DNA from: Panopea generosa
Lineage: Eukaryota > Mollusca > Bivalvia > Adapedonta > Hiatellidae
Assembly (NCBI GenBank): GCA_029582155.1
Contig: CM055905.1
Location: 68,035,618-68,099,617 of the forward strand
Length of the DNA: 64,000 bases
Direction of reading: 5' to 3'
The notes below the pieces were generated by a model. It worked only from the letters and a program-made list of their open reading frames with translations. It made no database searches and was not told the origin of the DNA. How positions within the stretch are numbered: the stretch's first letter is position 1; each line of letters begins with the position of its first letter. Position numbers and translations under genes: made by a program. Below, piece by piece: positions 27,541 through 63,387 of this stretch.

Positions 27541-27586
27541 GTGATAGCTCTAGTTTATATTTAAATGTAGTAAGCATAACGTAGTT

Positions 27587-28626
27587 AGCTCTACTGGCCA
27601 AAGGCCAGAAGCGTTATGCGATGACGCGTTGTCTGTCCGTCGTCTGACGTCTGTCGTCTGTTAGCAGCACTTTCTCTGAAACCACTAGGCCAATTAAACT
27701 GAAACTTCACATGGGTGTTTCTATTGCATAGGAGACTAAACAGAAGATTTTCTTTTTTCGATCTGAAATTCAAGATGGCCGTCATTACTAAAAATAGTCC
27801 AAAACTTAAAAAATCTTCTTCTCATGAACGGCCCGACAGATTTTCAAAATGTTTATGTAGTTATGATGACCAACTATAGTTTTGTTAGATTTGTTCAAAT
27901 GGTGTCCCTGGGGTTAAATATGACCTCGCCCCGAGGGTTCAAGTAGGGGACACATGTCATTATAATATTTTTTTTTAAAATGGAAATGATTTTGCCTATA
28001 TCTTCACAGAAGCATTGTTTGGTGAATGAGGTTCAGATTTGTAAAAATGACTGGGTTCCACTCTCTTAAGGGGTCAGGAGGGGCTCCAAAAGGGTAAAAA
28101 TCATTTTCTTATAAACCGGTATGTCAGATTTGTTCATATTTTGCATAGATTATCCCTATGTGTAGGGGTTTGATTGCAGATAAGAATTTAGGGGCTAAAA
28201 TTTATAGGGGCCCTGTAAGGGGACTTAGAATATTACATAGGGATACTATGGGACAAAAGAAAAATTCTCTTTTTTTTCATTTATTCTGAAACCACTAGGC
28301 CAATTAAACTGAAACGTCACAGGGATGTGTCTATTGCCTTGGAGACTAAACTAAAGATTTATTTTTTCTATCTAAAATTCAAGATGGCCACCGTTACTAA
28401 AAATAGTCCAAAACTTAAAAAATCTTCTCATGAACGGTCCAACAGATTTTCAAAATGTTTATATAGTAATGATGACCAACTATAGTTTTGTAAGATTTGT
28501 TTAAATGGTGTCCCTTGAGTTAAAAATGACCCCGCCCCGATGTTTCTATTGCATAGTAGAATTTCAAAAAGTGCTATGGCCACTATGAGTCAGTAGAGCG
28601 TCCTCAGGCCCTCTTGGGCCTCTTGT
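27587..28626 (-). repeat. ~1 kb interspersed repeat, copy 3, inside the receptor intron
   Basis: Reverse-complement copy with both ends present (TAGCTCTACTGGCCAAAGGC at the left, GGGCCTCTTG at the right), antisense to the receptor gene. Its internal duplication is retained. Confidence 0.87.
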
Positions 28627-29593
28627 TTTATAAAAGCTAAAGTTTTTAAAATCAATCATGAATTATGAAAGAAACAGTCTTTCAAAATAGAAAAGAAATC
28701 AAGATGTTTTGTACAAATTGAACATGTATTTAATACCCCATTCTTGGATACAAACCGTAAAATTTCATTAACATATCCTGAAAAAAAATATGACAATTTA
28801 AAACACATCATAAACTGGTGATTGAAAGCATCAATGAAGACATTATAGAAGTTCCAAACCATTTAGTTTAGCATTTATTTTATCGATGAAGACCAGAAAT
28901 ACACGATTTTTTATACTTACCAGAGATCTTAAACACGGCTAAATATTCGGCCGAGGACGACGAATTTTTAGTAAACATTAAATCTGGAAATTGAACATTG
29001 GCAAATTATAAAGAAATGATTATAGATAAAAAGAATAATAATAATATACTGAATTCATACAGAAAATCTCTTACTATTATGATAATCATTATGTTTTAAT
29101 TATTATTATAATGTAAAATAAATTTCTGTCGGTGAATGAATGAACGAACGAACTTATAAATAAGTGTAATTAAACAATCAAATGAATGAATGGTTATAAA
29201 ACTTGCTAAATTAATGGATGATGAATATGATGATAATTAAATGATGTTGGGATATACATGTTAATTCATTATATTGTCATGTTATGTTTGGGTTATGTAT
29301 GTGTATGTATAAACAATAAACGTGTCAATAATGTTGGCTCAAAAAAAATCTGGAAAAAACAGGGCCATTAGACGTTTGAATTAAGAAATATTTATTATCA
29401 ACAATTGCTAACTAATGTCGTCTGCATTGACCTAATGCGGAGTCTTTCTAAACGTAACACAAATTGGAAAATAAATACAACGTCTCGTGTTAGGCATAAT
29501 TGTTATAAAATGAAGAAAAGTTTGTTCATAATTATAAAAATGTGTAATATGTAAAAAAAAAATATTACCAATACAATGTGCTTTTTTTTTCAG

Positions 29594-31294
29594 AATATAT
29601 GCCGACCACTTCTGTGTTCAAAAGGGATGACATTTTCAGGAGACAGATGTATTGTGAAAGATTATGAAAATGTGGATTTTGATGTAGTCATTGCTCTAGA
29701 ACCGTATGCAACTCACGACAATGAAACTGTAAATCAAGTGGAGCTTTTGAATATGCACCAAGACGTATTCTTTGATTTGGAAATGTATATGGAAACACAT
29801 TTCAGTGCTTCATTGTTTGTATGTAGCTTTAAATCATTTCTAAAGTTAGATAACACCGTAGTATTTGATAACATAACAACGCCACTGTATAAAACAAATA
29901 TCGCCTATGTGATATTTAAAATACAACTTGGTATGCAACCTCGCCTTGAAAACGTATCAACAGTTATTCAACAGCTTTCAGAATTCATGCATTTAGATGA
30001 ATTAAGCTTAACTAAGTATCGACTGAGAAAAAAACTGTGGCAAATGAATACGTCTTTGGCAGCTGCTATTGCAACACAACAAGGAACATATCTGTCGCAG
30101 AAAATGGATTTAAAATGGTGGTTTCAATCTAACACTTTTCTACAACTTGGCTTTGCTGGACTAAACCCTATACGAAAGTTTAGTATGTTTGAATGCGCAG
30201 GTCTCATACTTGTTGAATACAGACCATTCTGTCCAAAAATTAAACTTTTGGCTGACGAATACACTTTCATGCCAAACAGATCTAACATATATTTGTCTCG
30301 TATACACAGTTACATAAATGATAGCGAGTTTCTTATTGACTCGAGCGAGGCAAGTATTTCTATATGCCAGGACACATATACAAAGCTATTAATCGCCTTT
30401 ACAGACATCGCAAAAAAGAATGCAGAAACGTTTGGTTTTTCTACTTTAACACTTTTGACAATTGTATGTTTAACGTTATCTTTAATATCATTAGTAGTAA
30501 CAATCATAGTTTACAGCTTACTTCCCCAGTTAAGGACTGTTCCTGGTAAAAATGTCATGGCTCTGGCGCTCAGCCTGTTTTGCTTTCACTTAGTGTCTCT
30601 TGTAAACACGATTATCAATATAAGAACTGGGTTGATTTGCAAGGCAGTAGGAATTCTACTTCACCTGTCACTAATATCGTCATTTTTATGGATGCTCGTT
30701 TCAACTTTCCACATGACGAAAGTCTTTGCCAAACTCGATAGACCACCTGCTGCTGGTACAAAGACCGGGAAAACGTTCATTTTTTACGTTTTGTTTACTG
30801 GGTCTATGTCGATTGCGATAGTGTGTGCAACTATTGTCCTATCTTACGTAACATCAGGCTATACAAGAATTGGTTACGGGGGCGAATTATGTTACATCAC
30901 AGAGACAATCGCTGTCTTATGTATGGTGGCTGTCCCAATCGCTATTGTCGTTATTTCTGACATTTGTATGTTTCTTTACGTCATTCTGAAAGTAAGCTTT
31001 CTTCCGACTTTAGGCGAATCTAAGACAATAGAGAGAAATAATATAATTATATTTACGAAGTTGTCAACCATAACTGGACTGACATGGGTGTTCATATTTG
31101 TCTATACGTTCACCCAAATTCGTGCTTTTGCGTTCATTTTTGTAATCCTTAATGCAAGTCAGGGAGTGTTCATTATGTTTTCCTTCGTTCTAAACAAACG
31201 CGTTGTAGGCATGTTCCGTCAGATGATAAGCGATAAAACATCACAAGCAAGCTTGAGTTCAACGAATGATATAAAGATGTCCTCACGGTCCTAA
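29594..31294 (+). CDS. Exon 2 of the secretin-superfamily 7TM receptor (membrane core)
   Basis: This exon encodes the juxtamembrane ectodomain and the seven-helix core. It starts after a strong acceptor (a run of T then CAG, ending 29593) and reads NICRPLLCSKG, continuing exon 1 in phase 0. TM1 starts near 30440 (TLLTIVCLTLSLISLVVTII) and the others follow at family spacing. TM3 holds SSFLWMLVSTFHM, matching the FLW-L signature of secretin-like receptors. TM6 has KLSTITGLTWVFIFVYTF and TM7 has LNASQGVFIMFSFVLNKRV. The Cys before TM3 (ICKAVG) and the Cys in extracellular loop 2 (GGELCYI) form the conserved disulfide pair. I see no GPS autoproteolysis motif (no HLT/S cut site flanked by paired Cys and Trp before TM1), which favours a Methuselah-like receptor over a classical adhesion GPCR. 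A short cytoplasmic tail ends in a stop at 31292-31294. An AATAAA about 100 bases later fits the 3' end. Receptor class is confident; the subfamily is inference. Confidence 0.9.
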   Translation, partial: NICRPLLCSKGMTFSGDRCIVKDYENVDFDVVIALEPYATHDNETVNQVELLNMHQDVFFDLEMYMETHFSASLFVCSFKSFLKLDNTVVFDNITTPLYKTNIAYVIFKIQLGMQPRLENVSTVIQQLSEFMHLDELSLTKYRLRKKLWQMNTSLAAAIATQQGTYLSQKMDLKWWFQSNTFLQLGFAGLNPIRKFSMFECAGLILVEYRPFCPKIKLLADEYTFMPNRSNIYLSRIHSYINDSEFLIDSSEASISICQDTYTKLLIAFTDIAKKNAETFGFSTLTLLTIVCLTLSLISLVVTIIVYSLLPQLRTVPGKNVMALALSLFCFHLVSLVNTIINIRTGLICKAVGILLHLSLISSFLWMLVSTFHMTKVFAKLDRPPAAGTKTGKTFIFYVLFTGSMSIAIVCATIVLSYVTSGYTRIGYGGELCYITETIAVLCMVAVPIAIVVISDICMFLYVILKVSFLPTLGESKTIERNNIIIFTKLSTITGLTWVFIFVYTFTQIRAFAFIFVILNASQGVFIMFSFVLNKRVVGMFRQMISDKTSQASLSSTNDIKMSSRS

Positions 31295-40335: not shown

Positions 40336-40367
40336 TCATGGTCTTCTTCTGTTCTCTGAACATTGAC
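40336..40367 (-). CDS. EGFL7/8-like terminal exon (Cys-X-Cys tail)
   Basis: This short last exon follows a strong acceptor (a pyrimidine-rich tract ending TATCTTTTAG). The split codon T|GT gives Cys, and the exon reads [10 protein letters not shown] then TGA (40336-40338). EGFL7 proteins end in a Cys-X-Cys plus basic residues right after the last helix, so phase and sequence both support the choice. Other acceptors nearer exon h (for example at 41577 and ~41590) give no such tail. The real exon could still differ; a cDNA would settle it. Confidence 0.72.
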
Positions 40368-43300
40368 CTAAAAGATACGAAAAAGACGGTGAATGATATA
40401 TATATCGACAACAGAAATAGATGTGTTCAGTTTAACCCTTTACTTCATATAGACATCTTTGGACACCTCTAATATAGAAAGCTTTTGAATTATGTTTATA
40501 TTAACTGACAGAGTGGAAAACAGTGCAGGAAGTGTTGAGATTGCTCGTTATGAGCAATCTGAACTCTTCTTGCACAGTTTTCAAAGGCCTTCTGTGATTG
40601 GTGCTGGGAAACGCGTATCTATGGAGTAAAGGGTTAAGTACATTTTTAGATTTGTTTATTTTGTAACGTTCTTATATTGGGATTACCTGTGTGTTCAAAA
40701 ATACGTAAACATGTCATGTGGTTGAGAGCAGTTCGATGACGTCAACGGCGTTTATCTCAAATTTGAATGCACTTCTTATGTTTTATTAACCAATTCATCA
40801 TACACGTCACTATACCACTCCCCCTTGAACTGGGCAATGATGTGACGCGTGTTTCCTTCATGTCGCATAAAGCTATGTTTACGTATTTTTTCTTGACAAC
40901 GCTTGTTATGAAAACATTTGTTTCAAACTTTAATTAAGGGCCATAATGGCACGCTACCAGCAGGTGAAATCTGGCGAAATTTTATCGTCGCGATCGTGTA
41001 AAACAACTTTTATTCAGCATAAAGCGAAATTACAATGATTCTAGCCTACATATGATCTTTTTCAAATATAAAAAAAATGAACTACGGGTGAATGTTACCT
41101 GACTAGTGCGTTCACAGTTGTCATAATTGATAAAAAATATATAATATAACTATCTACACATATAAATGCGCCACTTGTACCAATACATGTATATAAAATT
41201 TTATCAAAATCTATACCAAGTTTGGAAATTATTTCAAAAGTCCACGTATATTGAAACATCTCGTATGTCTTCTTAATATTGAAATTATCTAATATCTAAA
41301 TCAAATTGTTTTATTTATAATATGTTGTTTATCTGCAATTGTCATTTTAAGTACATGTATTTGTAATTCATTTTTGTGTATGGAAGGGCCGTAACTAATG
41401 TTGGTAGAACTTGTGGCCCAACCCTTTTGCTTAAATATATATATATATGTTAAAATGCAATAAGATATGTTAAAACTAATATTAAAATGTATATTTAAAC
41501 GGATAAAAAACTAACCATGATTGACAACTTATAACATTCTGGATTTAGACAACAATGTCGTGTTTCTTTGACGACATCTAAATATAAAACCTTCAAACCA
41601 CTGTGCGAAAGTGGTAATATTATTGCAAGTGCTTCGTTATACATGTACATAAAGATGTGATGGCAAGAAAGGCATAATATGTATTAAACTGGGGAAAAAC
41701 TTACAATAGTCCAGCTTCTCTTCCATGAGCCCTATCTGATTACTGAGTGAAATTATCAAATCGTATGGATCGTAGTTTATTTGAAATGATCCTTCTGTAG
41801 TGGATGTCGTAGGTATGGGTGTTGTTGTTTTTCGTGCTGTTGTGGTAGTGGGCGGCGGTTTTGTTTGTGAAACTTCACTTATCCAAGTGAGGTTTTGAAG
41901 AGCTTCTATTTCCTGCATGGCTGATTCATGATTCAACTCAAGAGCTCCGATGGCGTCTTTCAAATGGGCCTGAAAATGTTTACGAATTTAAATGCATTGT
42001 AGGGGGCGTTGCACTCAAAAACGGTACAACAGAAACGGAAAATATCCTTAATGTGAACTTTTTTTTAAAACTTCAAACGTAGAAGCATGACATCATAGGT
42101 TAGCATAATTAAATTATTATCACACATTGTGACATAGACTCGATAAAACCTAGTGTGCTATTGTCTAGGTTTTGTTGCGAGAGACCATATCATAAGTTAT
42201 CTGGGCAACGAGTACCTCCATCGCAACGTCTTAAAACTATAAATATGTCTGTCGATAATGTCTCCGCTGAGCATATAGCCATATTGTAACGAAACCATTC
42301 GAATAATATGTATTTGGTTACTAACAATAGAACAACAGTGAGGATAATTTAAACAATTAAAACATACTGTTGCTTGCTAACAATTTTTACCTTAATAATT
42401 ATTTGAGAAGTGGAAGGGGTTGGGGCTGTAATGCTGACAAGAAAGATTGCAATTAAAGATTACTATAGGGCCGTAAGTGATGGAGTAAGACGTGATGACG
42501 TTAAGAGATACTCAACTTCATACTTTATTTGGCAATAACATAGCCCTTGAGAAATATTGAATATCACCTGTATTTTATAATTATTCGTTAACAATGGAAA
42601 TATCTTAGCAGATCGAAGTGTATTACATAGTAAAGATAATCACCTGCAATGCGTGACCGAACAATGAAAGATGAAGATGCGTTAATAAAACAACTTACAT
42701 TCTCGTTTGTCAAGTTAGAAACATCGTCCTTAAGCTTTGTAATCATTGAATGAAGTTCCTGTACGTCTTTCTGAAATTAAAGCTGTAAGCATGAATGAAA
42801 GTAACGGAAAATGCCCGGTCATCAGTTTCTAAAAATATCTGTCCATGAGAAACGCATCAAGCAAGGCACTTTTCAAGACCCCCAATAAATGCCTTCCATA
42901 AATTTGATGCGTACTGGCCAGTGAGTACGAGAATCCAAATGCGAAGAATAAGTAGGGCGTCAAGATAAAGAAACTTCCAATACTCTTTAATTCATTCAAA
43001 TCACCTGTCACATGTGACTTTAAAACGACGATACCTTAATAAAAATAACAGTTACTCACATTGTCAGATGTCATGTTAGAAACGTCCTCTTTAAGGTCTT
43101 TAACCTTTGCATGAAGTTGTTGTATTTCTGTCTGAAAATAGATAAATCCGGTATTTGAATTTGACATTTCTTTTACAGCATGTAACAGGTTACGACAGAC
43201 TGGATTGTTAAGAAAAACTTTATTTACACACGTGTAAACACATATAAATTGATGTTAACATAGATATCCGATGTTCATGTTGGTAACTATCAAGGTGTAA

Positions 43301-46300
43301 ATGATGAGATACCTGTCAATATAGTATATGATGACGTACCTGTACGTTGTTTTCATTCGTCACTTGGTTCTCAAAACCTGCCAAAACTGCCACCAGGTCT
43401 CGATATTCCTTTTGGCACGTGAAACAAACTGTGAACAAAGGGGAAAGATACTTTATAAAGTAAAATACTTCGCTGTTCTGGCTGAAGTGTAGTCAAAGTA
43501 ATTTTTATATCATATATTGTAAAATGTCCGGTTGTCAATGTCGATGAACAAGGAAGAAAGAAATAATGGTGGATTACAATGAAAAAGTTTCTCATATGAC
43601 TACACGAGGTTATAACCACTCTTATATAGTTATCTATTTTCCAAGGAATCGTGTCATTTTATATGTCAACTTTATTGCAAAATCTTTGCACATACTATGT
43701 CATATAAAATACAAACAAATTACGGTATCCTCAATAAAGGATCAACATTAAATCCGAAACTTCATAGAACAGTTGAATATACATGCATTTCCAACGCAGT
43801 GCTATCGACACCGAAACAGGTTTAAAGATATTCGAAAAAGTTATATTAAAATATAAAATATATTCAATTAAAATCTGAAAGAAAATGGCAAAGAGTATTG
43901 AAATACCGCCTATATCAGTTGTTTATGTATATATCTTAATACTGAACATTCGAACCAAATAAGCATTAATTTACAAATATAAAATAGTATTTTATGATAA
44001 AAAAATGGTGTACACATATCTAATCGGTATCGTATACTTAAGACAGTAATATAAACAAAAACGTGTACGTAAAAAAAACACAAAAAAACACGAATGTTTT
44101 GCTTAGGTCTTCAAACGGTATATTCATAGAGAGGTATGTTCCGTAGATAAGATATACATGCTACACCGAACGGTTGCATGATGCTACACCGAATGGTTGC
44201 ATGATACAGCTTCTGTTACTTGATGCATCCAAGCTCCAAGCGCTTAACTATGCGAGGAGTATGATAACAAAGGGCACTGGAAAGACAGATAAGACGAGCA
44301 TCGCAGATGTAGAAAGATAAGTTGATAAATAAACATTAAACATTAAAAGTACAAAAATGAGGAAGTTCCGCGGCGGGTTTCAATAAACACCTTATTTTCC
44401 TGAACGAAAAAAAGCTCAGTTTGAACGCATTACGTGTAAAATGACCACACAGAAGTGGGGACGATTGTTTACTCATTGCTAAAAGATAACATTTGATCAA
44501 TGTCTTTGAAGCTTTAGCATTTCAAAAATTTGAGTTGAGGAAAATCTCAAGTTCAGATATTAAGTGAATCATTGGTCAGGTGAATATGGTTTAATGCCAT
44601 TTTCAATGGGTTTCTTGTTCTATATGGCACATCTAATTGTGCTAGTTGATTAAGATCCCGATAGTAAAACCACAGTCTTTTCGCAATTTACTGCTCTACT
44701 TTCTCACAAAATGTTTTTGGGACGACTGGAACAAAATGATCTCCTTCATCAGATTGGATGGTATTTCGAATATCATCAACTAGCAGAGGTTATCAAATTG
44801 CAAACTGTTCCATTTTCGCTATTGAAATCATATATCGAAACTACTGCATGCAGGTCTAAATGTCGTTCTATTTTTTTTATAAGATCACGGTTTGACCCTG
44901 GAGGTGGGGCCTACTTAACTTAATCTTTACAAGAGAAATAGACAAAAAAACGTTATTTCCTATGACTGAATATGCTGACGTGACTGTTTTTTTTTTAATC
45001 AGGCAACCTTTAAGACCATGGGCCTCCTGTTATTTTTTGCAATTGTTTCCTATTTCTTGTTCGCATTTTCATGAAACAATGATCTAAGCAAATATTTAAA
45101 TAAAAGTAGCAGCAGCACTCCTGTCCACAACCTATGATTCATTTACAGTGAGTAACAGTATACTTTCCTTATATTATGCAGTTCGGTGCATAATGTACTT
45201 TTAGTAACGGAATTTTATACGTAAACCGACATTTATCAAAACGTCTTCATCTGATTTAACTTGTAACTTCTATGATAACTCTATATGCTTGAAGAGGTGT
45301 GCCATATTTTACGATAACCGCATAATTATACCATGATAGACCATGACGCATATTTCATGTTGCACTTTTCGCAAATCAAAATGAGCGCCCTTTTTAAAAC
45401 GCTGGGAAAGGATGTTACGTGCCCTGTGGATTTGGAGAATATGGATTCAAGAAAAACGTAAAAAACACATTACAATCGAGGAATTGCAATAGTCGTAACA
45501 AAAACGTGTATTTTTTTAACACAGATACTAGTATACGATTGACATTCTCGATTTTTAAGTGTAGAGTAAATTATACAATTGTTTGTGATCTTTCTCTCTG
45601 GTAGCCCCGCTCAAGTGTGTCTCGTGCATTGAAAGAGGAATGTCACCCACCATGGTCTAATTTACGCTACATATAAAAATCATTGTATATCTATGACATA
45701 GATGCTTAAAAACATATGTTTTTTTTTTGTAAAATGAGTCAATGATAGCATTTGAACAAACGTTTGAAAGACAATTAAAATGCCTCATTTTAAATATAAC
45801 TACTTGAAGAAATAAAAAAAAATAGTTGCCTTGGTGAAGTAAAGTCTAAGAAATCCGAATTGCAAGTTTGTTTTAAAAATATCAATCTAACAATTGTATA
45901 CGTGTGACAAGCATTTAAAAAAATGTTAGAAATGTAAACGCCGCCACGTACGTTGACTCAAGTGTTGTAATTTTAGATTTTTGGATTCTGAGGGCCGAGC
46001 CAGTACTGAAGGTTGTTGTTGTTGTCTGGTGTTTAGCGTCGCTTTCAACATTTTCAGTCATTTCGCGACGGTGTCTACTTGAGACAGTATTCTAAGCGCT
46101 GACACACTGGAGTATCATGCCGCAGAGACATGGTATGATACCCCACCCAGTCTCATTATACTGACACCGGGCCGACCAGACCTAGAACTCTCCTCTAAAT
46201 GCTGAGCGTCAAGCGAGGAAGCTTCTAGTACCATTTTTAAAGTCTTTGATATGACCCGGCCGGGGATTGAACCCACGACCTTTCGCATGCGAGGCGGAAG

Positions 46301-49300
46301 CTCTACCATTAGACCACGCCGCGGTCTCTAGTACTGAAGGAAAAATTGAACACCGCTTTACCTTGCTAGTGGACGTGAAAAGTGTTTCATATAACAGTAT
46401 CTACTTACACAAGTACAGGGAGACCGAGTGTAGTATTGTTTCTTTACACGCATTCTGTACTTCCATGGAATCCTTTTATATCAAATATTATTACTAGGGG
46501 AAATGTTAGTTATTTTGGTGAAAAATTTAATTAGATCACGGGTTATGCTTGTATATGTATAATTGATGTGTAAGTTAAAGAGTACGGGTCCTCTGTGGAC
46601 AAGTGGTCGAAGACGCCGGCTCACTTGCATCTCACCGCTGAGGTCGTAGGTTCGAGTCCCACTCGGTCCAAAAACTTTGTAAGAAAGTTTGCCGGTTACT
46701 AGCAGATTGACGATGGTTATTCTCAAATTCATGCTGTGATCTTCCTCCATCAATGGATATGACATATATAACCTGAAATGTGTTGAAATTGACGCTTAAC
46801 CATGTAATAAGAATACACAAATATTCAAACCAAATCTTAAAATGATCACGCATCAAAGTACACATTTTTTCAAAATTAGCAGCCATCACATGAAAGACGG
46901 CTTAAGTGAAAAATCAATAGCTGATAGAAGTATCCGATAGAAGCCCATACTTCATCAAAGAAAAAAAATAACAGACCCGAACTTGCCCAGTATGTCTATA
47001 AGGAAATATGCAACGCTCTAACGCCCTCCCCTGCCGACCACCAACTGAAGCGGTATTTTATTTTTCTAGCAGCATGAATGATCTCTACGGTTACATATAT
47101 TGTCTTAATGTTAGAAGAAAGGAAATTCAAAGGGTTTTCGCAAAACCGAAACGTTCTGCAACTCTACAGATTTATAATGTTGAACGTTTTGAGCTTACAT
47201 ATGTTATTACTTTAGTTTACAGTTTTTCAGTTGAAATAAATAAATGCATGCTTGTTCGTTATCTTTGATATCATTTATGCATTAAACTGTCGATTCCTAA
47301 ATATCTTATTTACTAATCAGTGCATACCAAAGATTTTTTGATTTTTTTAAAAAAATAACCTGTCATAATTTTAGCATTTTTTTACAACATTATTGCAAGA
47401 TAATGTAAATGCGTACACATAACTGTATTGCTCTCTTCAAACTCGTTAACGAAATTAACCCGCGCTTTAGTTTCAATTAAAAAGATAGTTCTTAATTTGC
47501 GATTAATACTTTTCAAGTTGACGTGATTTAGCCTCAATGTAAATTAATTCTGGTATTTAACCTCAAGATTGCATCCAACCATAATTAAATAGAAGAGTTT
47601 TACGTGCTCAATTAAATACCGAACAGATATGATATTTATTTTCAACATTTTTTTATGTCTATTACGAATATGTTGTATGAGTCACGCTAATTATTTAACA
47701 CTAATTCTAGATTAAGTTGAACCTTATCTGTTTTAAATGTTATTTTTATAATTGTTTTTTTTTTAAAATTACTAGTCATTTGCATCTTTAGTTGGGGGCA
47801 ATATTTGTTTAAAAACGTGCTTCGAAAATTATTAAATTGTCTTCTCTAGTTAATATATATTTGCATGACTTCAGGCGAATATATTTCAATATATATTTTT
47901 AATATACTATTTTGATGCTTAATCAAATAGCTTTATCTTTCAAAAAAAATGAGTATTTAAATGTTTTGTTCATTACATTTCTCTGGATTTTTTTTTTATT
48001 TTCAGCAAGGGTTTATCAATGACAATAATCATAGTTATCGTAAAAGCCGAGGATGTGTTCTATTTTAAAACCTGTCTGACTATTACTCAGATGTTATTAC
48101 GCACATGTACACGTTTTCCCGTCTGGAGCCAATATGAAACCTTCTTGACATGCGCACATAAAACCTCCAGCTGTATTTTTGCACACATGGTGACATCCGT
48201 GTTTGTCCGTCTTGCACTCATCAATATCTAAAATAATAAATATATAATTAAAGGATTATATTAAGTAAAGACTGATTGATTAATTGAATATTCAATTTTA
48301 GCGTCATTCTTATGTCATCTAGAGCTAACAGACAATTATTCAACCTAACCACTCTTTCGTGAGACATTACAAGTACTCAAGCACACTCAATCTCCGCAAG
48401 TAACTGATAACTTTTCCCACTTGAATCAGTGGTGCAAGACTAATGATTATGAGACGACGTCTGATATTAATCATATCTGACGGGCAGGGATTCGTACCCG
48501 CGATACCTGGATTGATAAATAGATGCGCTACCGATGAAGCTAATCCGACCCAGCCTTTTTAAGACGAGAAGATGGCAGATTCGGGTTTATTCAGTTTGTT
48601 TAAAATGGATGAGGGAATGACATTGGTGGAAACCCCTCACGCTCCCTAGCACTAGTTTGAGCAGTTGCTAAATAATATCCTGTATACGCTGCTTTGGCTA
48701 TGCCCTACCAATGTTATGAGTAGTCTAGAACTAATCCGGCTCCGTTAACCGGACCCAGGAGACACCAGTTCTATACATATGTTCTATATTTGTCATATGT
48801 TCGAAGAATACAGAATAAGCGGGGCGGTAGTGTAATGGATGGAGTATTGGCCGTTCACGCCAGAGGTTGCGGGTTCGATTCCCCGGTCGACCCGATGCCT
48901 CTCATAAAACAATACTCAGTACTGGTTCTTCCCAGGAAACGGACTCGAGAGCGGTGCATATAACTTCTGAGCTTTCATCGCAATCAAACTAAAATAAATA
49001 AGTATAAACTAAACTAATACAGAACTTGCTCCACGATGCCAAGGAATCAGAAATACTAACCACCAGCGGGAGGGGTACGGGGGATTTTACGATCAACACA
49101 ACAGCTTTAAGACTGGTGCAACAGAATAAACGATACGTAACTTTGAAATCGTTAACAGACTCGAAAGTTCAAAGTATCTTGTTCAAGGCTAGATACGAAA
49201 GTTCGGCTCAATTTCTGTTTACTAATATTTATATGTAAATATATAAAAAGAACATGTCAATATATTAATGGCAAATAAAAACAGCGGAAATATGTACAAA

Positions 49301-52300
49301 ATAACCAACAATGATCTGAAGTGTATTGCCGATACGTTTCCACTTCAAACTAGTGTATGATCTTGTTAATAGCATCATTAGCACGACCTCTGGCGGTATA
49401 CTAACGGCTTCGAATTCGATTACAACAAACAGTTATGAACTCAGTTTGAGTAATGATATTCTGTATATTATTGAACCATGAATATAGAAATTGAAAATTG
49501 TGTAGTTTAAGGTTTTTATTTTGTGACGCAAATCGTGGCTTACAGTATGTGTTTTATCATTAATTAAGCAACCAACACTTTGTAGTGATGATTATTTTTA
49601 AAATCCCGTACTGATGACTCGTGGTATTTGCTTATAAGATCTTTCATGGGTATGGCGTGAGTATGGAAAATTCCGTCCCGCGGAATAAATTATCTTTCAT
49701 GGGCTTGACGCGCGGATGGAAAAGTCAATTCCTCGAATAAAGTATCTTTCATGTGCGGATGGAATATTCCGTCCCTCGAATAAAGTATTTTTCGTGAGCT
49801 TGACCCTAATTGCAGGATTTTTAAAGATTTTTAATCCGGTCTATTTTTTTTATTGTAGTATTGGCGAATGGAATGGCGCATTAGAATGGCGTTACGTCAC
49901 AGCGCGGTTAGGATAAGGGCGTGGAAGGAAATCCTTGTCCGGTATGCAAAAAATATAGTTGCCGACCTCGAACATCGCCATTATTGACAATCTATGTGAG
50001 TTACTATAGGCTAAATAGACGTGTATTACCGGTGTCACACATTGGTCCGCTGAAGCCCGATTTACATTTACAAGTGTTTGGCTGCTCACAGACGCCAAAT
50101 TCTCCACATTCATTGTTACAGATAGCTGGAAAAAGAAAACAAGAACAAATCATTCATCTCCCCGTTTCCATATGTATTATGTTCTACATCTAGAAATGGT
50201 ATTGTTTTTTATGAGAATTTCATTCTGCAGTGTAAGAATTTTGATTTGTGTTCCATAGATGAATAGAAGTGAAAATAGTTAAAAACAAGATACTGCAAGA
50301 TTTTGCGTATATACGCGAGCGTTCACAAAATCTTAATCAGTTGCCTTTCCTTCTCTATATAATTCTTTGATTTAACTGTAAATCTGATCACCTTACAAAC
50401 ATGTTTATATACCTTGGATTTGGACTAACATTTCCAAAAAACGTGTTCAATAACTGGATAGATCTATTAGGCATTGTAATGAAATAGATTGGAATAATGA
50501 CCATTAAGCAACACAAAATACAAATGGACAATTAATACCATATTCACTGAAAAGCTATGGAAGCATATTAAAAAATCGGAATTTCTGGAAAAAAGGTATT
50601 TATTTTTTTATATACAACGACGTTAGAATTTAAAGAATCGAAACAAATAATCACTTAACAATGTTGTAAAAAAGTAGTTTAGAGATATCAATTTCTGCAC
50701 AATCTATGTAAAATCTGGCTAACTGCGATTAATAGTACAGGTCATCGTATGCAATATATTGTTATTCCCAGTTAATTTTCTACAACTGCAGCATTTGGAA
50801 AATTGTATCTACGAACATGTGTACCGTACAATTTAATTTTAAAAATTCATTTATTAATATCAACATCGGATTCTGGTTCTTACACCCTACCCACTGTATT
50901 GAAAACCCAGATTTGCATTCAGCAACATTGATTGAATCGTTGAAGTCGGACGGAGCTGTCGAAACTAGTCGAGTATGGAGTTGTGGTACTCACGTTTCAT
51001 ACATCCTTTCTCCCTTAGTTGACGTTTGGTCCACCCTGGACAACAACTATGCTGGAATGTAGAGGACTTCTGTAACTGATACACGGTCCTGTTTGCTTCG
51101 ATATAGGTCACACTGACAATAGAAAATTAGATAGTGACCTTTCGGCAATAGTATTTAAAGACCTGATTAGACATCTCGCCAATTTGAATGAATGATATCG
51201 AGAGACTATACCTGATTTATGTCTACGACGCTTGCATAAACGTTGTCATAACCTAAACATCTAAAATGACTAGGTTTTACTATGCAGAAAGCTTTATTTC
51301 TTCTATTAATTTTGTTGACCAAATACTAAATCACGATTTGCGATTTTATCACTTATTGACCAATATTAGGTTATACTAAAGCACTGACGAATAAAACGCA
51401 AAATGCCGACCTGTGTATTAACGAAACTTCATAATAAAATAGACTAAAGGATGGAGTCAACCATTATCTTCGAATGGGACCTTCCTCTTTGTGATTCCAT
51501 AAACTTTCCACCATTTACTGAATAGATGATGCATCTCTAACTTGCAGTACTATTATATTTTACCTTACTTTTCTAATGATACTATTTTGTCGTTGTAAGT
51601 TACTATTGCAATAGTATCCCCACTAGACTTGTAACATGAAATATCAATATTACATTAAGCAATATCAATTATATTGTAATAGTCAAAATTAGCAGCATGA
51701 GTCAGTTATTCAAAATTAGTAGCAATAGTCACCGCTAATTGTGACTGATGTGGGCAGATATGTAAATCGAGATACTTTGATTCCTCTTAAAGCCATCTGT
51801 TTTACTTTACCAAATATACTTTTAAAGGAAGTGGTCAAATGTTTTTGCCAAAAACCACACGGAAAGATCGTGTCGGGATAGAATTTATGTGACACACACA
51901 CGTCTGAGTCACCACGACTGTTTTCATAAGAAAAAGAGGCGATTTTAACAAGCATAAACGAAATGTGACTAAGTCGTTCAGAGCAGTCAGCTGTTTACGT
52001 CCGAACCATGCAGAAAAATTAAAAATTTAGAACATTTAGTGTATTTTTCAGCACTTCTTGATGTTTATACACTAGCGATAAAGAAATTAAGCCAGATTGA
52101 TCTTAAAAAGGATTGCTACTCGGGAAGTGATTCAACAACGCGAGTGTATGGTTACATATAATAAGTCGATGCTGTTAACCCGTTACGCAGTGCCGGATTA
52201 ATGAGCTATAAGGTGACGACTTTTACACCACAACTTCCGCACTGAATGTCAACGTGAAACACCTCGCGTGCCGGCTTGAATGTAAATGATACACTTGCAT

Positions 52301-54775
52301 GAACGTTTGATCAAAAGCTTGAACTCTGGTTAGCGTATCAAGCTGCACACACTTGCAGTCGAGTAAATAATATCACGTATATTAAAACACACTCCTGGTC
52401 CAGATGTGCGCCTTCACAGACGTCTCAAGTTATTCTATATAACTGCTGGTAACATTAACAGGCGCGTTGTTTGTGATGATTAAATATCTACATTCCTACC
52501 ATAGCTGCATAAAGGACACAGAACGTCGAAATATGCAGAACAATTTTTTTTATAAAAAAAGCTAAGATATAACAAATGAAACGTTTTCAGTCTCATCATC
52601 TTTTTTATTTTCGTTGCTTAAACAAAGTTTCAGTTAACCATTTACTTGATATAGACGCCTTTGGACACCTAATATAGAAGGCTTTTGAATTATTTAGTGA
52701 ATTATGTTTATATTAACTGATAGAGTGTAAACAGTGCAGGAAGTGTTTAGATTGCTCGTTACGAGCAATCTGAACTCTTCCTGCACTGTTTTCAAAGGCC
52801 TTCTGTGATTGGTGCGGGAAAACGCGTATCTATGGAGTAAAGGGTTAATCTGTATTAAAGATATAGTTCGTGATTTCAACATATACAGTTATGAAAGTTT
52901 GTTTGAAATAGAAAAAAAATCATTGATATTGTACATGTATGTGTGTTTGTCGTCTGTCTGTATGTTTATGCTTGTGATGTATGTTTGTGAATATGTGTGC
53001 AAACGTGCGCATGTATTACAACATGTTTGCCATACAAACGCTATAAACTATGTAGTAACAATATATGTTTGTATTGTATATGTTGCTTGCAGAGGAAGGA
53101 TCTCGAGTAATCTTCAGGATCCCTGGATGTTTGGCTAACTGGTCATCTGTAAGTCAGCGCTCGGTTGCATAAAACGACGCTAAATATATAATGTGGGTTT
53201 CTAACGCTCTAAGGTGTAGTCGTTTAACATCTCTCACCACTATTACATTTCCCATAGGGCTCCATTGTAACATTTATGTCCAAAACAGAGTGAAAAATCA
53301 AATTTTGCAGCAATAAACATGAATATACCATATCTAACCTGCCATGTGTTGAAAATGGCTTTAAACCCAAATAAAGAAGTAATGTGGTGGTGGCATTGCC
53401 TTTAAACGCTTTATCTTCAGTTTGACGTATATCTCTGTATATTAGCGTTGTGTTGTGAAACTCGGTAGTTTCATAACGACGTGCACCACAGAATTATGAT
53501 AATAATATGATTTTTTTTATTCATGTTTGTATTACACATATGGGATCAGAACCAAGTGCGATACTAAAACCTGGCTAGACTTCCGGCTAACAAGGTCATA
53601 TTCCGGCTATTGGAACAGCGGTTAATAAGTTTTATAGAATATTTTGTACTTCAGTACATTTATCTCAAATGGTATGTATATTGAGTGAAAACAGAACATA
53701 ATTTATGTCTCGTAATGTTTTTAATAATTCTTTTAACGTGCCAAAAATGTGAACAAAAGCATAAATTAAAAATGTTTTTCCCCCATTTTCAGCTGTATAT
53801 CAGATATTATTGTATTGCATTTCTGCAACACCATACGGAGTTTGATAAAAACCGAACTTTCGAATCAAAAACGTAATACAGTTTATATTGAGTTTATCTT
53901 GCTAACATTGTTGGTAGACATCTAAGCTCTCGGTCATGTTGGTTTTTAACATTATATCTGCTGATATAAACTTATAATCACAACTGAAATTTAATAATCA
54001 AATGATTCACGCAATGGACATGCAGCAATTTTGATAAAATATCACTTAACACTACATGACTTTTTAATCATATTAAACTGAGACCGAAATTCGGTTGTTA
54101 AACAGATTGTTCAGCTCAACGATTTTTTTGTACGTTACCAGGTGCGGAAGGAAAATTCTGTCCCGAGGGATAACTGAGTTTGGCGCTAACGATGCTCTGT
54201 TGAGTTACCGCCAAAACATTATCCAGAGAGGCGGAACTATACTGAGAACAGCCAATGAAAGATATTTTACTTGTATGCTGTGCAATTCTTTTTTAAAAAA
54301 TAATGTTGCGGTTTATTTATTATAGTAGCATAAGAGTAGCATACTATTCATGAATAAGTACGTCACAGCGCGAGGGTTTTATCAATAGCGTAAGCGCAAG
54401 GAAAGCATATTATGTATAAATGAATACGTCATTATAAATGGCGTAAGAGTTTTATCATATGACGAAGATTTTATGAATGGCGTTACGTCAAAGCGCGAAG
54501 AGGGCAGGATGTATGATTGAAAATCCGTTTCTGGTAAAAATAAGCGGATTTTTTGTCCGGCATGCACAAGAAACAAAAATCCGCCCTGGTTTCCCTTTAA
54601 TGTAAAATGAGTATATCATAAGTGCATCATAATCGGAAATACTTACTCAAATTGGGGGCAGTTTTTTGTAATATTCGGACACTCTCGGACTTTAGGTGTG
54701 TATACAGGCTTTCGGTATGTCTGAATTACAGCTACTGGCGTCGATACTGTCTTCTGGGCCGTGCACACGTGCCTC
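40336..54775 (-). CDS. EGFL7/8-like secreted protein (EMI, EGF, Ca-binding EGF, coiled coil); 5' exon missing
   Basis: Nine minus-strand exons with good splice sites join in consistent phase: 54775-54647, 51112-50994, 50125-50030, 48227-48105, 43428-43340, 43131-43060, 42770-42699, 41969-41705, 40367-40336. The product (~330 residues seen) runs EMI domain (ending CCPGW), EGF-like domain, calcium-binding EGF (starts DIDEC), coiled-coil segments, a Thr/Pro-rich stretch, then a final helix ([17 protein letters not shown]) and a Cys-X-Cys end. This order and the C-terminal Cys-X-Cys after a leucine-rich helix are the hallmarks of vertebrate EGFL7/EGFL8. Known relatives are secreted matrix-associated factors: vertebrate EGFL7 acts in vessel formation, and Drosophila Slowdown modulates integrin at muscle-tendon junctions. 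The first visible exon begins mid-codon, so a signal-peptide exon must lie upstream; I could not identify it. The family call is confident, strict orthology less so. The gene converges on the receptor gene at 31.3 kb. Confidence 0.85.
40432..40637. mobile_element. TTAA-flanked palindromic MITE (piggyBac-like), copy 1
   Basis: The element starts TTAACCCTTTACTTCATA and ends TATGGAGTAAAGGGTTAA, giving short inverted ends CCCTTTACT...AGTAAAGGG with TTAA outside. TTAA targets and CCC-starting ends fit the piggyBac superfamily. The interior holds a perfect hairpin around AGATTGCTCGTTATGAGCAATCT and flanking complementary arms. It sits ~65 bases upstream (in gene direction) of the EGFL7-like terminal exon, inside the last intron. 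Confidence 0.75.
41705..41969 (-). CDS. EGFL7/8-like exon h: coiled coil, Thr/Pro-rich insert, C-terminal helix
   Basis: This 265-base exon has acceptor CATTTTCAG and donor TATT|GTAAGT. It begins [20 protein letters not shown], a clear amphipathic helix. A mucin-like stretch follows ([20 protein letters not shown]), then [20 protein letters not shown], which resembles the last helix of EGFL7. It ends in phase 1. If the donor is not used, translation reads through 22 codons to a TAA at 41637-41639, giving an alternative tail. The Thr/Pro insert is not a usual EGFL7 feature and may be O-glycosylated. Confidence 0.85.
42699..42770 (-). CDS. EGFL7/8-like exon g: 24-residue coiled-coil repeat, copy 2
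   Basis: This 72-base, phase 0-0 exon has acceptor TTAATTTCAG and donor AAT|GTAAGT. It reads [16 protein letters not shown] then VSNLTNEN. It has the same length and phase as the preceding exon, with matching Q-x-LH, LK, DVSN-T and a terminal N, so the two arose by exon duplication. Confidence 0.82.
43060..43131 (-). CDS. EGFL7/8-like exon f: 24-residue coiled-coil repeat, copy 1
   Basis: This 72-base, phase 0-0 exon has acceptor TTTTCAG and donor AAT|GTGAGT. It reads [16 protein letters not shown] then VSNMTSDN. It can be skipped or multiplied without breaking the frame. It is homologous to the next exon (11 of 24 residues identical, most others conservative), including an N-glycosylation site at the same position. 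It probably extends the coiled coil used for oligomer formation. Confidence 0.82.
43340..43428 (-). CDS. EGFL7/8-like exon e: post-EGF linker and first coiled-coil segment
   Basis: This 89-base exon has acceptor TGTTCACAG and donor CAG|GTACGT. It begins in phase 1 and ends in phase 0. It reads [20 protein letters not shown], then QVTNENNVQ. The CxxC pair is followed by a helix with hydrophobic residues at heptad-like spacing. The intron before it is ~4.7 kb and may hide a small exon, although the phases already match. Confidence 0.78.
43430..46025. other. Long EGFL7-like intron, left part
   Basis: No additional exon recognised. It holds a half-copy of the 34.3-kb inverted-repeat element near 44.55 kb and otherwise AT-rich sequence. 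Confidence 0.5.
46028..46325 (-). repeat. tRNA-headed SINE, family A, copy 2
   Basis: Full-length copy with tRNA-like head (GACCGCGGCGTGGTCTAATG), body containing GGGGTATCATACCATGTCTC, and tail GTTGAAAGCGACGCTAAACA. It lies in the 43-48 kb intron of the EGFL7-like gene. Confidence 0.85.
46590..46790 (+). repeat. tRNA-headed SINE, family E, copy 1
   Basis: Ser-tRNA-like head with a long variable arm (GGACAAGTGGTCGAAGACGC, B box AGGTTCGAGTCC) followed by AAACTTTGTAAGAAAGTTTG and TGGTTATTCTCAAATTCATG. Confidence 0.65.
48105..48227 (-). CDS. EGFL7/8-like exon d: calcium-binding EGF domain
   Basis: This 123-base exon has acceptor TTATTTTAG and donor ACAT|GTGCGT. It reads [16 protein letters not shown], then [20 protein letters not shown]. 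The D-I-D-E-C start and the later N/aromatic positions match the calcium-binding EGF consensus. Six cysteines are present. It is symmetric phase 1-1 and sits second after EMI, as in EGFL7. Confidence 0.92.
48273..48552 (-). repeat. tRNA-headed SINE, family B, copy 3
   Basis: Minus-strand copy sharing the CACTGATTCAAGTGGGAAAA and GTTATCAGTTACTTGCGGAG blocks and the GACGCTAAAATTGAATATTC tail. It begins 46 bases upstream (in gene orientation) of the calcium-binding EGF exon of the EGFL7-like gene. Confidence 0.82.
48818..49016 (+). repeat. tRNA-headed SINE, family D, copy 1
   Basis: Head GCGGGGCGGTAGTGTAATGG, B box GGGTTCGATTCC, body CCAGGAAACGGACTCGAGAG and TAACTTCTGAGCTTTC, AT-rich end with AGTATAAACTAAACT. 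Confidence 0.78.
49630..49960 (-). repeat. Tandem 'ATGGAAAATTCCGTCCCKCG' units plus a shared 3' block
   Basis: Three ~55-base units (ATCTTTCATGGGCTTGACGC ... AATTCCGTCCCKCGAATAAA) are followed by GAATGGCGTTACGTCACAGC and TTGTCCGGTATGCA. The last block recurs at 54120-54600. Confidence 0.6.
50030..50125 (-). CDS. EGFL7/8-like exon c: EGF-like domain
   Basis: This 96-base exon has acceptor CTTTTTCCAG and a weaker donor, ACCG|GTAATA. It reads [13 protein letters not shown], then [15 protein letters not shown]. Six cysteines in EGF spacing with the GF-G-C end mark an EGF-like module. Phases 1 on both sides are the usual arrangement for shuffled EGF exons. Confidence 0.9.
50994..51112 (-). CDS. 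EGFL7/8-like exon b: C-terminal half of the EMI domain
   Basis: This 119-base exon has acceptor TTGTCAG and donor AAAC|GTGAGT. Its first base completes the split codon of the previous exon. It reads [12 protein letters not shown]..., then [12 protein letters not shown] and GCMK. CCPGW is the diagnostic end of EMI domains. The exon ends in phase 1 and the split codon gives Pro, producing the usual 'C-x-P-I-C' link into the first EGF repeat. Confidence 0.9.
52634..52848. mobile_element. TTAA-flanked palindromic MITE (piggyBac-like), copy 2
   Basis: Second copy of the element at 40432, in the same orientation and with the same hairpin (GCTCGTTACGAGC). It ends in GGAGTAAAGGGTTAA and lies in the intron between the two EMI exons of the EGFL7-like gene. 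The left end has one change (ACCATTTACTTGATA). Confidence 0.75.
54120..54600. repeat. Repeat related to 49.6-49.96 kb, next to the first EMI exon
   Basis: Contains GAAGGAAAATTCTGTCCCGA, three spaced copies of an ACGTCANAGCGCGA/GCGTAAG block, and GGATTTTTTGTCCGGCATGC, shared with 49.6 kb. It ends just downstream of the EMI exon's donor. Confidence 0.5.
54647..54775 (-). CDS. EGFL7/8-like exon a: N-terminal half of the EMI domain
   Basis: This 129-base exon has acceptor TTATTTACTTAG and donor GA|GTAAGT. It begins with one base completing a codon and ends in phase 2. It reads [17 protein letters not shown]..., then [13 protein letters not shown]. The VC opening and the spaced cysteines match the first part of an EMI domain, which folds as a small disulfide-bonded module in matrix proteins. 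There is one N-glycosylation site (NIT). Confidence 0.85.
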
Positions 54776-55560: not shown

Positions 55561-55721
55561 TTTAAAACAGACTAGGACAGTCACCACAATATCATAGCAC
55601 AGACGGACTAGTAGTAGTGTTCTCTGCTCGAATACAGAAAGTTGTTGGTGTCTGCCCTACATGGGTCATACCGAACACTTTAAAATAAAGTCAAACCTGT
55701 CTTAAACAGCCAGTCATGGGA

Positions 55722-56035
55722 AGACCCCTGCGTGGTCTTGTGGTAGAGCGTCCGCCTCGCATGCCGAAGGTCGTTTGGTTCAATCCCCGGCCGGGTCATA
55801 CCAAAGACTTTTAAAATGGTACTAGAAGCTTCCTCGCTTGCCGCTCAGCATTTAGAGGTGAGTTCAAGGTCTGGTCGGCCCGGTGTCAGTATAATGTGAC
55901 TGGATGGGGTATCATACCATGTGTCTGCGGCATGATACTCCAGTGTGACAGCGCTTAGAATACTGTCTCAAGTAGACACCGTCGCGATATGACTGAAAAA
56001 TTGTTGAAAGCGACGCTAAACACCATACAACAACA
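55722..56035 (+). repeat. tRNA-headed SINE, family A, copy 3
   Basis: Plus-strand full-length copy: head GCGTGGTCTTGTGGTAGAGC with B box GGTTCAATCC, then the shared body and the tail GTTGAAAGCGACGCTAAACA followed by a (CAA)-like end. Confidence 0.87.
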
Positions 56036-59225: not shown

Positions 59226-60342
59226 TTCAGTACATGTGCATGATCCATAACTCCTTTCTATTAGGAGAGGGAATAAAATCTGCAAATGTATAAAGAGCAA
59301 TACATGTTGTATAGTGTGGTAACTACGACGAAAAAAGGTATACCCTGCATTCATCTGTTTTTTATCGATACAACAAAACAAAAGAAACAGCGTGCAAAAC
59401 GATAAATGTAAATGTTACAGCATTTCAAAATTTTGCATTGAGAAAAATCTCAACTTGAAATGTTTCCCTATAAACTTAACGTCTTCTGTTCTAACTACTT
59501 AATGCAATCATTCGTATTGTTCTCTGGTACTCAACATTATAATATAATTCGGTTTATCAGCAGGACGCGGAATTCCATCTCCTGCTGAGGTGGTTTTCAG
59601 TATATGAAATTATGCAGTTATGGTTCTTTGGACTGACGCTTAAGAGAAATTAATACATTATAAAATAGAGTTCATAAATCAAACTTAAATTTCACATGCT
59701 TCTGCGGTTTTATAATTTTATTTATGCATTCTCGCTTTCACTCCAAAACCCACATCATGTAAGTAAACTTCAGACGGAGAGACTCGGGCACGTGTGTTTA
59801 TCTAGATGTCTTGTAAAATTTACCGTATCAGACAGAAACGATGTGATGTGGCAGATAAGATGTACGTGATACTTCATTCCAAGGTTCTATAATTCAAAAC
59901 AGTTCAACAAAAAATAAAAGAAAATGTCCTCTTGAAGATTTCCACGGATATTTTGCTACAACCGTTCTTGAATGTTTTGTTATGTAACATTTGTGTACTT
60001 GGAAGCTAAATGCCCATGGTTCATGTCATTAACCATGCGTACTTAATAAACTATTTCAACTGTTTTGTTTTTAGTTAAAAAAGTATTGACGTCATATATA
60101 AGTTGAGAGATGATATCTGCTTGGATAACAACTAGATTCTTAGGGGAAATGTAGACATGTCAATTTCATAATTATAAAGATAATATCAGTTTAGAAAGAA
60201 ACTTTATTTACTTAAAATTATAAAAAAGGAGTTTTGGGAATATGTTGTAATAATGAGTCATACTGCAAAGCGGAACTATAAAAGGAATTTTGTTTTACTT
60301 ATTATATTTAAGACATGATGAATCTATAATATTTTAATAACA

Positions 60343-60893
60343 AGAATGACATTCTAATACACCAAATGGAATTTTAGTACACCAAATGGAATTTTAGTAC
60401 ACCTAATGGAATTATAATACACAAAATGTAATTTTAATACACAAAATGCAATTTTAATACACAATATACAAAATGCAATTTTAATACACAAAATGCAATT
60501 TTAATACGCAAAATGTAATTATAATTCACAAAATGTAAATACGCAAAATGTAATTATAATACACAAAATGTTATTATAATATGTAATTATAATACACAAA
60601 ATGCAATTTTAATACACTTTTAATACACAAAATGTAATTTTAATACATGTAATTATAATACACTTTTAATACACAAAATGCAATTATAATACACAAAATG
60701 TAATTATAATATACAAAATGTAATTATAATACACAAAATGCAATTTAATACACTTTTAATACACAAAATGTAATTTTAATATATGTTATTATAATACACT
60801 TTTAATACACAAAATGCAATTATAATACACAAAATGTAATTTTAATACACAAAATGCAATTTTAATACACAAAATGTAATTATAATACATGTA
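60343..60893. repeat. ~20-bp AT-rich minisatellite
   Basis: About 25-30 units of AATACACAAAATGYAATTWT with a second shorter unit (AATACACTTTT) interspersed in a higher-order pattern. Confidence 0.92.
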
Positions 60894-61124
60894 TATGTAG
60901 ACAATCAATATCGTTTATATTTTTGTAAATCGTCGACATTACTCCGGTAATAAAAAAAAACTGAAATGTGTAATTAATTTGTATCAGCATGATGGATAAA
61001 AAAACAATGATCAATGTTTTACTTTACAGTTCTTTTACGGATATTTTCAAAGCAAGCATGCCGCCACTAGTTCTATAAAACTATTGATTAATTATTAGAT
61101 ATGAAGGGTAATTTTTGCAGGGTA

Positions 61125-61319: not shown

Positions 61320-63060
61320 TGCTGTGAGGCCCTTCAAAATTGGGAACGGGTCTAGTTGTGAAGAAAATAAATTATCATAGTTAATATTTAGTTAACTAAA
61401 GTCACGGGATAAACCATTTAACGATATTTTATGTACAAATTGGTTTGACTTCAACAATAGTTTGGATCAGTGCGTTAGTTATTTGTCGACATTTATGAAA
61501 CAGCACAAATGTACCTTACTAGTGGTGTCTGGCCTATTGAGTTTTTCCTATGAAACCTTCTCGGTTAAGTTTTCCAACAAAGGTCTACTTAAAAGTTTTG
61601 TCTTTTTGTACCGATAATTATTATTAATTGACTCTACGAATTGCTATATATACGCTACTGTCACGTGTACATATCACGTGTCTTATCGAAAAATACTCCA
61701 TTTAAATTTAACGCGATTCTTGTCATCAGATCTAACCAACATTTAAAAGTGTTTTGGTTACTCTTAAATAAAAGGGTGTCTGTTTCTGAAACCAAGAAAC
61801 TTTAGTCTTTTTTTTTAATTATACTTCTGCAGTAATTACGCTGGTGTATGGCGTTTAGCGTTGGCTTCAACATTTTTTCAGTCCGTAAGTTTCTTTTTTT
61901 TTTCATATTCAAAGTTGAATGCGTTCGTTGCATAGCGTTTATATGATAATGTTAACATAATTACATTTCAAAAACCATTTTTCGGTGAAAAGTCGCATAT
62001 GTTTCTCGTATTAAATGTGCACGTGTACGATATGTTCGACTTTCATGTTTTACGTTAAATTTGACATTTGTATGCTAGTTTCTGTATGACTCCCATACAC
62101 GTGTGTATATTTATTTAAGATAGCATTTGTCATGTTTCATATGAAATACTTCTTCTCTTGCGTCGAGTCATCTAGGATCAGTTGCGTGAAGACTAATACA
62201 GTTGTAATATGTTGACTATATCCATCCCAGAACTTGATATCTCCCGAATCAGGTATGTTAACAACTAATCAAAAAGCAGGGAATTCTACGCATGTCCCAC
62301 AATTCATAGCAACTGGACGCTTACTAAATTGTGGCGTCATTCAAACTTCCTGTTAAAGGTGTAACCCCACCATTGATTTTTGTTCTTTATTCTATACTAA
62401 ATAATAAAAGTTTGAAGGCTTGTCATTCATAGAGGGTCCCAAATGAAAGAAGTGAAGCCTACATTTTACTGTTTGTCAACCTCTGCACTATCAAAATATG
62501 ATGAGAAAAGTAGGGGTCATGTGTCATATAAGAGATTTTTTTTCTGCTCAGTGTGTACACTGGTGACAAAGTGAAAGTAGACTTCCGAAATCATGAATTC
62601 ATACCCCAATTTCCAAGCATCTTTTTTTTTTTCGAAATTCACAAATCAAACATGAAAATGCTATCAAAATGTTCAAAATACATCAATAATGCCATTCAAA
62701 TAAAAAATGAGCATTAAAATAAGGAAAATGCATTTTTAAAGAAGAAGAATTGAGGATTATTTATAACCGCCATTATGCGACTACCCCACGGAAGCACTTC
62801 CTTTTTGCAATGGTGGCACTATGCCTAAAGCAAATGACCAATCAACGTGCTCAAATACGGCTTTCCCAACATTGCTATTTAAAGGAGCCAATCAGGAGAG
62901 CGGGATTCGTACTACAGAATAATGCTGGTTGGAAGCAAAGAGCGTGTGCTTTAAAAAAAATGCAAACTCGGTTTTACCGAGTCAAAATGAGTCTGTTCAT
63001 ACAGTAATCACATATAGAACAACACCCGTTAACACCTTCCCAATCAAACAATTGTTATTG
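61320..63060. other. No gene seen
   Basis: Only a SINE A tail remnant (~61848-61890) is recognisable. An 85-codon ORF at 62750-63007 lacks family features. Confidence 0.5.
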
Positions 63061-63062
63061 TA

Positions 63063-63363
63063 TGGTGTTTAGCCTCGCTTTCAACAATTTTTCAGTCATA
63101 TCGCGACGGTGTCTACTTAAGACAGTATTCTCAGCACTGTCACATTGAAGTATCATGCCGCAGACACATGGTATGATACCCCACCCAGTCACATTATACA
63201 GACACTGAGCCGACCGGACCTAGAACTGTCCTCTAAATACTGAGCGTCAAGCGAGGAAGCTTCTAGTACCATTTTAGTTTCTTTGGTATGACCCGGTCGG
63301 GGATCAACCCATGACCTTTCACATGCGAGGATGACTCTCTACCACTAGACCACGCTGCGGTCT
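63063..63363 (-). repeat. tRNA-headed SINE, family A, copy 5
   Basis: Full-length minus copy with head GACCGCAGCGTGGTCTAGTG, the palindromic GGGGTATCATACCATGTGTC and the GTTGAAAGCGAGGCTAAACA tail. A separate tail-only remnant lies at ~61848-61890. Confidence 0.85.
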
Positions 63364-63387
63364 TACTATCAAACAAAACCAAAATAA

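Follow-up and report, generated by a model that had tools for sequence, protein, structure and literature searches.

The closest described relatives of the gene reported here are the vertebrate proteins EGFL7 and EGFL8 and a counterpart in the fly. EGFL7 is presented as a matrix protein that acts on Notch and, via RGD, on integrins (PMC2901201, PMC7957479), the motif of the vertebrate protein being given as RGD/QGD (PMC7957479), and a figure legend shows Drosophila CG7447 as an EGFL7 orthologue with the same overall structure and a different total length (PMC2901201). At the muscle-tendon junction of the fly, the muscle integrin is described as a binding partner of both thrombospondin and Slow, which regulates thrombospondin (PMC5362613). 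The present gene lies on the minus strand of a 64,000-nucleotide stretch of the Panopea generosa genome (contig CM055905.1, here C12, positions 68035618-68099617), hereafter the window. For the purpose of comparison, I take CG7447 to be Slowdown. Two other groups of EMI-domain proteins are laid out differently: in MEGF10/PEAR1 many EGF repeats come after the EMI domain, along with a transmembrane segment, while multimerins and EMILINs have an EMI domain, a long coil and a C1q end, and are not known to have a calcium-binding EGF (cbEGF) beside the EMI domain.

The window gene is read here, with a probability of about 0.93, as a member of the EGFL7/EGFL8/Slowdown family, apparently present in a single copy and predicted to encode a secreted glycoprotein of 371 amino acids. 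It is a new gene of a known family, and an invertebrate member was to be expected, because the published fly orthologue shares the layout; among the open papers that literature searches listed, judged by title or the start of the abstract, none treats a mollusc EGFL7/8 gene. The exons, the reading frames, the EMI and calcium-binding EGF domains and the tail are read from the DNA, the only source from which the gene is known here. A preliminary description of this DNA had joined nine exons with matching phases over about 14.4 kb. All nine were recovered on the minus strand at the same outer borders (54775 to 40336), with AG/GT ends at all eight introns, but the span was too short: the 5' end of that exon list is incomplete and, since the likely coding start falls outside the window, the gene extends over about 28.4 kb. 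In order of translation, the exons are:

68702-68584 (window-equivalent; C12:68104201-68104319), minus strand: likely signal-peptide exon, 4.6 kb beyond the window, in-phase join
54647-54775, minus strand: first half of the EMI domain (RHVC...NCPQF), starting in phase 2, with the exon before it lying outside the window
50994-51112, minus strand: second half of the EMI domain with CCPGW (joined frame, Pfam)
50030-50125, minus strand: EGF-like module 1, without RGD (joined frame, Pfam, motif scan)
48105-48227, minus strand: calcium-binding EGF, DIDEC (joined frame, Pfam)
43340-43428, minus strand: start of the coil region, CFTC then coil (joined frame; its join to the cbEGF exon ranks among the least secure of the model)
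43060-43131, minus strand: coil unit of 72 bases, phase 0-0, ending SNMTSDN (joined frame)
42699-42770, minus strand: coil unit of 72 bases, phase 0-0, ending SNLTNEN (joined frame)
41705-41969, minus strand: coil, Thr/Pro-rich insert and EGFL7/8-type tail (joined frame, tail alignment)
40336-40367, minus strand: last exon, end of the tail and stop, 10 codons plus stop; the preceding intron interrupts the first Cys codon

The start/end phases of the nine window exons (2/2, 2/1, 1/1, 1/1, 1/0, 0/0, 0/0, 0/1 and 1/stop) agree at every junction, and the joined frame runs through 331 codons with a sole, terminal stop, against 24 and 17 stops in the other two frames. Exons are richer in G+C than introns (0.428 versus 0.344). 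Splicing restores two family residues from split codons: where EGF meets cbEGF it gives the D of DxDEC, and at the last junction, between the last coil exon and the end exon, it gives the first Cys of Cys-X-Cys. The two 72-base coil exons are identical at 11/24 residues and, to judge from this, likely arose by exon duplication; beyond these two, a search of the window plus 40 kb of flanking sequence found no convincing copy of the 24-residue coil exon. The weakest points of the exon model are the short last exon and the cbEGF-to-coil junction, where the donor used (CAT/GTGCGT) scores 2.5, still higher than the four others listed.

Searching the joined protein with Pfam returned EMI (PF07546; 36.5 bits versus a cut-off of 25, E 8.5e-09), EGF_CA (37.7 bits versus 27, E 2.4e-09), FXa_inhibition (40.9 bits, E 2.3e-10, above cut-off), cEGF (28.0 bits, at or over the curated cut-off) and EGF_2, which is barely at threshold (22.2 bits versus 22.1). 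The resulting order of EMI, EGF and cbEGF, together with a CQC end in the joined frame, agrees with the domains and the Cys-X-Cys end proposed earlier. Residues ~156-257 of the 331-residue protein matched several coiled-coil models, all below cut-off, and this coil-like stretch is followed by a Thr-rich insert and then the CQC end. Against solved structures, the N-terminal part of the joined protein matched the EGF modules of NELL2, the LDL receptor, Notch and fibrillin at the top, with no EGFL entry among the best 60 of 95 matches. It had also been suggested that automated annotation may miss the gene. This was partly borne out: when the genome was searched for EMI in six frames without splicing, two matches came up, neither over the cut-off of 25 bits, and the better one, at this gene, reached 21.6 bits (36.5 bits once joined).

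The first listed exon starts inside a codon (phase 2). On the same strand, the 49 kb before it (9.2 kb of this in the window) was scanned for a start exon, which had to combine an ATG with a hydrophobic start and a phase-2 donor. Two candidates passed, and the better-scoring one is the likely signal-peptide exon listed above. It encodes MIIAILVTCMLCFDAVISNGTPEGTFLHSVEETRIKSRP and reads ...KSRPG/RHVC across the join, the counterpart of which in human EGFL7 is RPGRRVC, so that both proteins would have RPGR(R/H)VC at the start of the EMI domain; this join to the RPG motif adds to the evidence for the exon. With it, the model comprises 371 amino acids over 28,367 bases, with six N-x-S/T matches and 24 cysteines.

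Family identity was evaluated against five comparators: human EGFL7 and EGFL8 at full length, and the N-terminal parts of MEGF10, MMRN1 and EMILIN1. Local alignment of the whole 371-residue protein gave z-scores of 38.7 for EGFL7 and 40.6 for EGFL8, the highest of the five, versus 9.2, 3.1 and 1.6 for the MEGF10, MMRN1 and EMILIN1 parts; comparing by stretch is fairer, because these three were available only as N-terminal parts. Over EMI and the first EGF module (EMI+EGF1), z-scores were 19.2 for EGFL7, 20.7 for EGFL8, 10.5 for MEGF10, 4.8 for MMRN1 and 1.4 for EMILIN1, and over the C-terminal part 7.8, 9.7, -1.2, 1.8 and 2.9 in the same order. The tail aligns with IDSLSEQISFLEEQLGSCSC of EGFL7 and with the EGFL8 tail, and it carries the motif SLSxQxxxLEExLxxCxC taken from these two proteins, with Met replacing the first Leu of LEE; an EGFL7/8-type tail of this kind is regarded as a family signature. 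Pfam gave the same domain order in both human proteins. The EGFL7/8-type reading of the preliminary description, which had named multimerins and MEGF proteins as the best matches that would speak for another family, is upheld by the domain order, the common tail and the best match among the five comparators, which went to EGFL7 and EGFL8.

Several results weigh against this assignment. The whole-protein and C-part scores favour EGFL7 and EGFL8 unevenly, full-length proteins and N-terminal parts not being compared on equal terms. The EMI domain alone separates the families only modestly (z-scores of 7.4 for EGFL7, 9.8 for EGFL8, 4.8 for MEGF10, 4.8 for MMRN1 and 1.9 for EMILIN1), and it scores 36.5 bits here versus 65.6 and 67.0 bits in the human EGFL7 and EGFL8 proteins. 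As to the signal exon, a control scan of 368 kb gave 25 candidates, two of which, nested in one frame, reached at least its score, and the score alone is moderate evidence for that reason.

The gene shares with human EGFL7 the EMI, EGF and calcium-binding EGF domains and the tail, as well as a likely signal peptide and a probable coil, and differs from it in a longer coil region, the duplicated 24-residue exons and the Thr-rich insert. While EGFL7 has an RGD in its first EGF module, and EGFL8 has one just before the tail, the 371-residue model contains no RGD, QGD or KGD. EGFL8 likewise has the same domain order, whereas the longer coil, the Thr-rich insert and CFTC at the coil start set the present protein apart from it. 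Slowdown is compared here through its description, as an invertebrate EGFL7 orthologue with the same overall structure and a total length that differs according to the figure legend (PMC2901201). A further difference from vertebrate EGFL7 concerns its intronic miR-126. No match to this microRNA was found in the window at the gathering score, among 14 loose matches in 40300-64000 or among seven over the next 10 kb. A genome-wide search with E values up to 10, in which only 65 of 94099 candidates were scored, gave none either.

MEGF10/PEAR1-type and multimerin/EMILIN-type proteins share the EMI domain, and the N-terminal part might belong to one of them, the coil exons then being part of a different gene. 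In MEGF10, too, an EGF comes after EMI, and its score over EMI+EGF1 is 107, but EGFL7 and EGFL8 exceed it with 133 and 135, and the rival proteins, which score lower over this stretch, have another order after EMI: MEGF10-type proteins are not known to have a single EGF and a cbEGF leading into a coil and a Cys-X-Cys tail. In place of many EGF repeats and a transmembrane segment, the window gene has two EGF modules, a coil-like region and a stop; a cbEGF is present, and no C1q appears among the 25 of 46 Pfam families listed for the joined protein. All nine exons also lie in phase on one strand, and the C-terminal part matches EGFL7 and EGFL8 alone among the five comparators, the other three being N-terminal parts. 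Taken together, another EMI family with a separate coil gene is very improbable.

A decayed or unexpressed EGFL copy is less probable still. Long, repeat-bearing introns and a gene inferred purely from genomic sequence would suit a pseudogene, but 331 codons run without an internal stop or frame break, GT/AG borders are intact, and neither the EMI+EGF nor the coil query found another strong copy in the genome. An error in detail is easier to imagine, although it too is unlikely: the gene may be right while at least one exon border is wrong or an exon absent, at the cbEGF-to-coil junction, the signal exon or the last exon. Donor scores are modest (1.0 to 6.5), the 4.7-kb intron ahead of the first coil exon could hold further exons, and the signal exon is simply the better-scoring of the two candidates that the 49-kb scan gave. 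On the other hand, the cbEGF donor in use outscores the other four listed, and the RPG/RHVC and CQC joins give back family residues.

The EGFL7/8-family gene was then placed in its genome (1.47 Gb, 39 contigs searched). The EMI+EGF query gave nine matches, the three strong ones all at this locus and the rest weak and EGF-only; the coil query gave six, with the four strong ones again all at this locus and the others weak and coil-only. The second match of the unspliced EMI search, a weak one on C8 (20.6 bits), is under the cut-off, and no Cys-rich EMI-like frame was seen in its surroundings, the position of the match not being placed exactly. The unspliced EMI search overlooks intron-split EMI domains, so other EMI genes are uncounted.

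As markers of linkage I used NOTCH, PBX, BRD, RXR, AGPAT and CAMSAP, which I take to lie near EGFL7 or EGFL8 in vertebrates. Matches to Notch (56.3 Mb), PBX (19.0 Mb) and BET proteins (16.6 Mb) are on C12, as is the most RXR-like match (60.7 Mb; 84% over 56 residues). The latter is named by identity, because it is only third of 42 by E-value, behind matches of 68% on C1 and 62% on C13. Speaking against shared linkage, the CAMSAP match is on C11, and 0/8 acyltransferase matches are on C12; the AGPAT2 query had zero matches in the genome and is uninformative. Random placement would put at least four of the six markers on C12, which holds 4.7% of the genome, with a chance of 6.8e-5, a rough figure because the markers were self-chosen and the RXR call is uncertain. 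Distances of megabases mean a shared chromosome, not adjacency. The gene probably descends directly from the one that vertebrates duplicated into EGFL7 and EGFL8. On balance, it is somewhat favoured that this single-copy line has also stayed on the invertebrate counterpart of the vertebrate Notch-PBX-BRD-RXR paralogon (that of the major histocompatibility complex). EGFL-Notch linkage would therefore predate the protostome-deuterostome split, and vertebrates would have added miR-126 and the RGD motifs later, to an adhesion modulator that lacked RGD. Some 5.6 kb before the window (C12:68029809-68030015) lies a match to the DNA-binding domain of nuclear receptors, 54% to that of RXR.

Several repeats and neighbouring features were seen. 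A palindromic element of ~220 bases occurs twice in the EGFL introns (40426-40637 and 52629-52848, 87% identical), and folding of 52630-52850 as single-stranded DNA gives -51.7 kcal/mol (z -10.7); the element is likely a non-autonomous transposon resembling a miniature inverted-repeat transposable element. Four copies of a ~280-310-base repeat (46017-46327, 55721-56035, 63052-63364 and 2308-2592) are 81-93% identical, and ARAGORN calls a tRNA-Ala on the minus strand inside one of them (46253-46324), so the repeat is likely a tRNA-derived short interspersed nuclear element. Tandem-like, overlapping direct repeats (60331-60896, 76-89% identical) lie in the intron between the likely signal exon and the first EMI exon. 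Further away, a frame at 29555-31291 matches secretin-type seven-transmembrane receptors (PF00002, 37.7 bits), and a Cys-rich frame upstream of it (25198-26214) has no Pfam family at E 0.01 (region 25198-31291).

Going by its domain layout, the protein would be a secreted, multidomain glycoprotein that self-associates through its coil and is placed in the matrix between cells. There it may tune the adhesion of cells to the matrix, much as fly Slow does together with thrombospondin and integrin, and Notch signalling is a further possible target. Any effect on integrins would be indirect or via another site, given the RGD-less model, making the protein more Slow-like than human EGFL7-like. A Slow-like role in adhesion is favoured because RGD is absent here, although its chances are put as even; modulation of Notch is an unlikely alternative. 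The EMI fucosyltransferases POFUT3 and POFUT4 have EGFL7 and EGFL8 among their listed putative targets (PMC11990869), so the EMI domain of this protein may carry fucose. For the family, a nearly full invertebrate EGFL7/8 gene model without RGD or detectable miR-126 would help to tell what the ancestral protein did from the vascular and microRNA roles of vertebrates, and it points to EGFL, Notch, PBX, BRD and probably RXR lying on one chromosome outside vertebrates.

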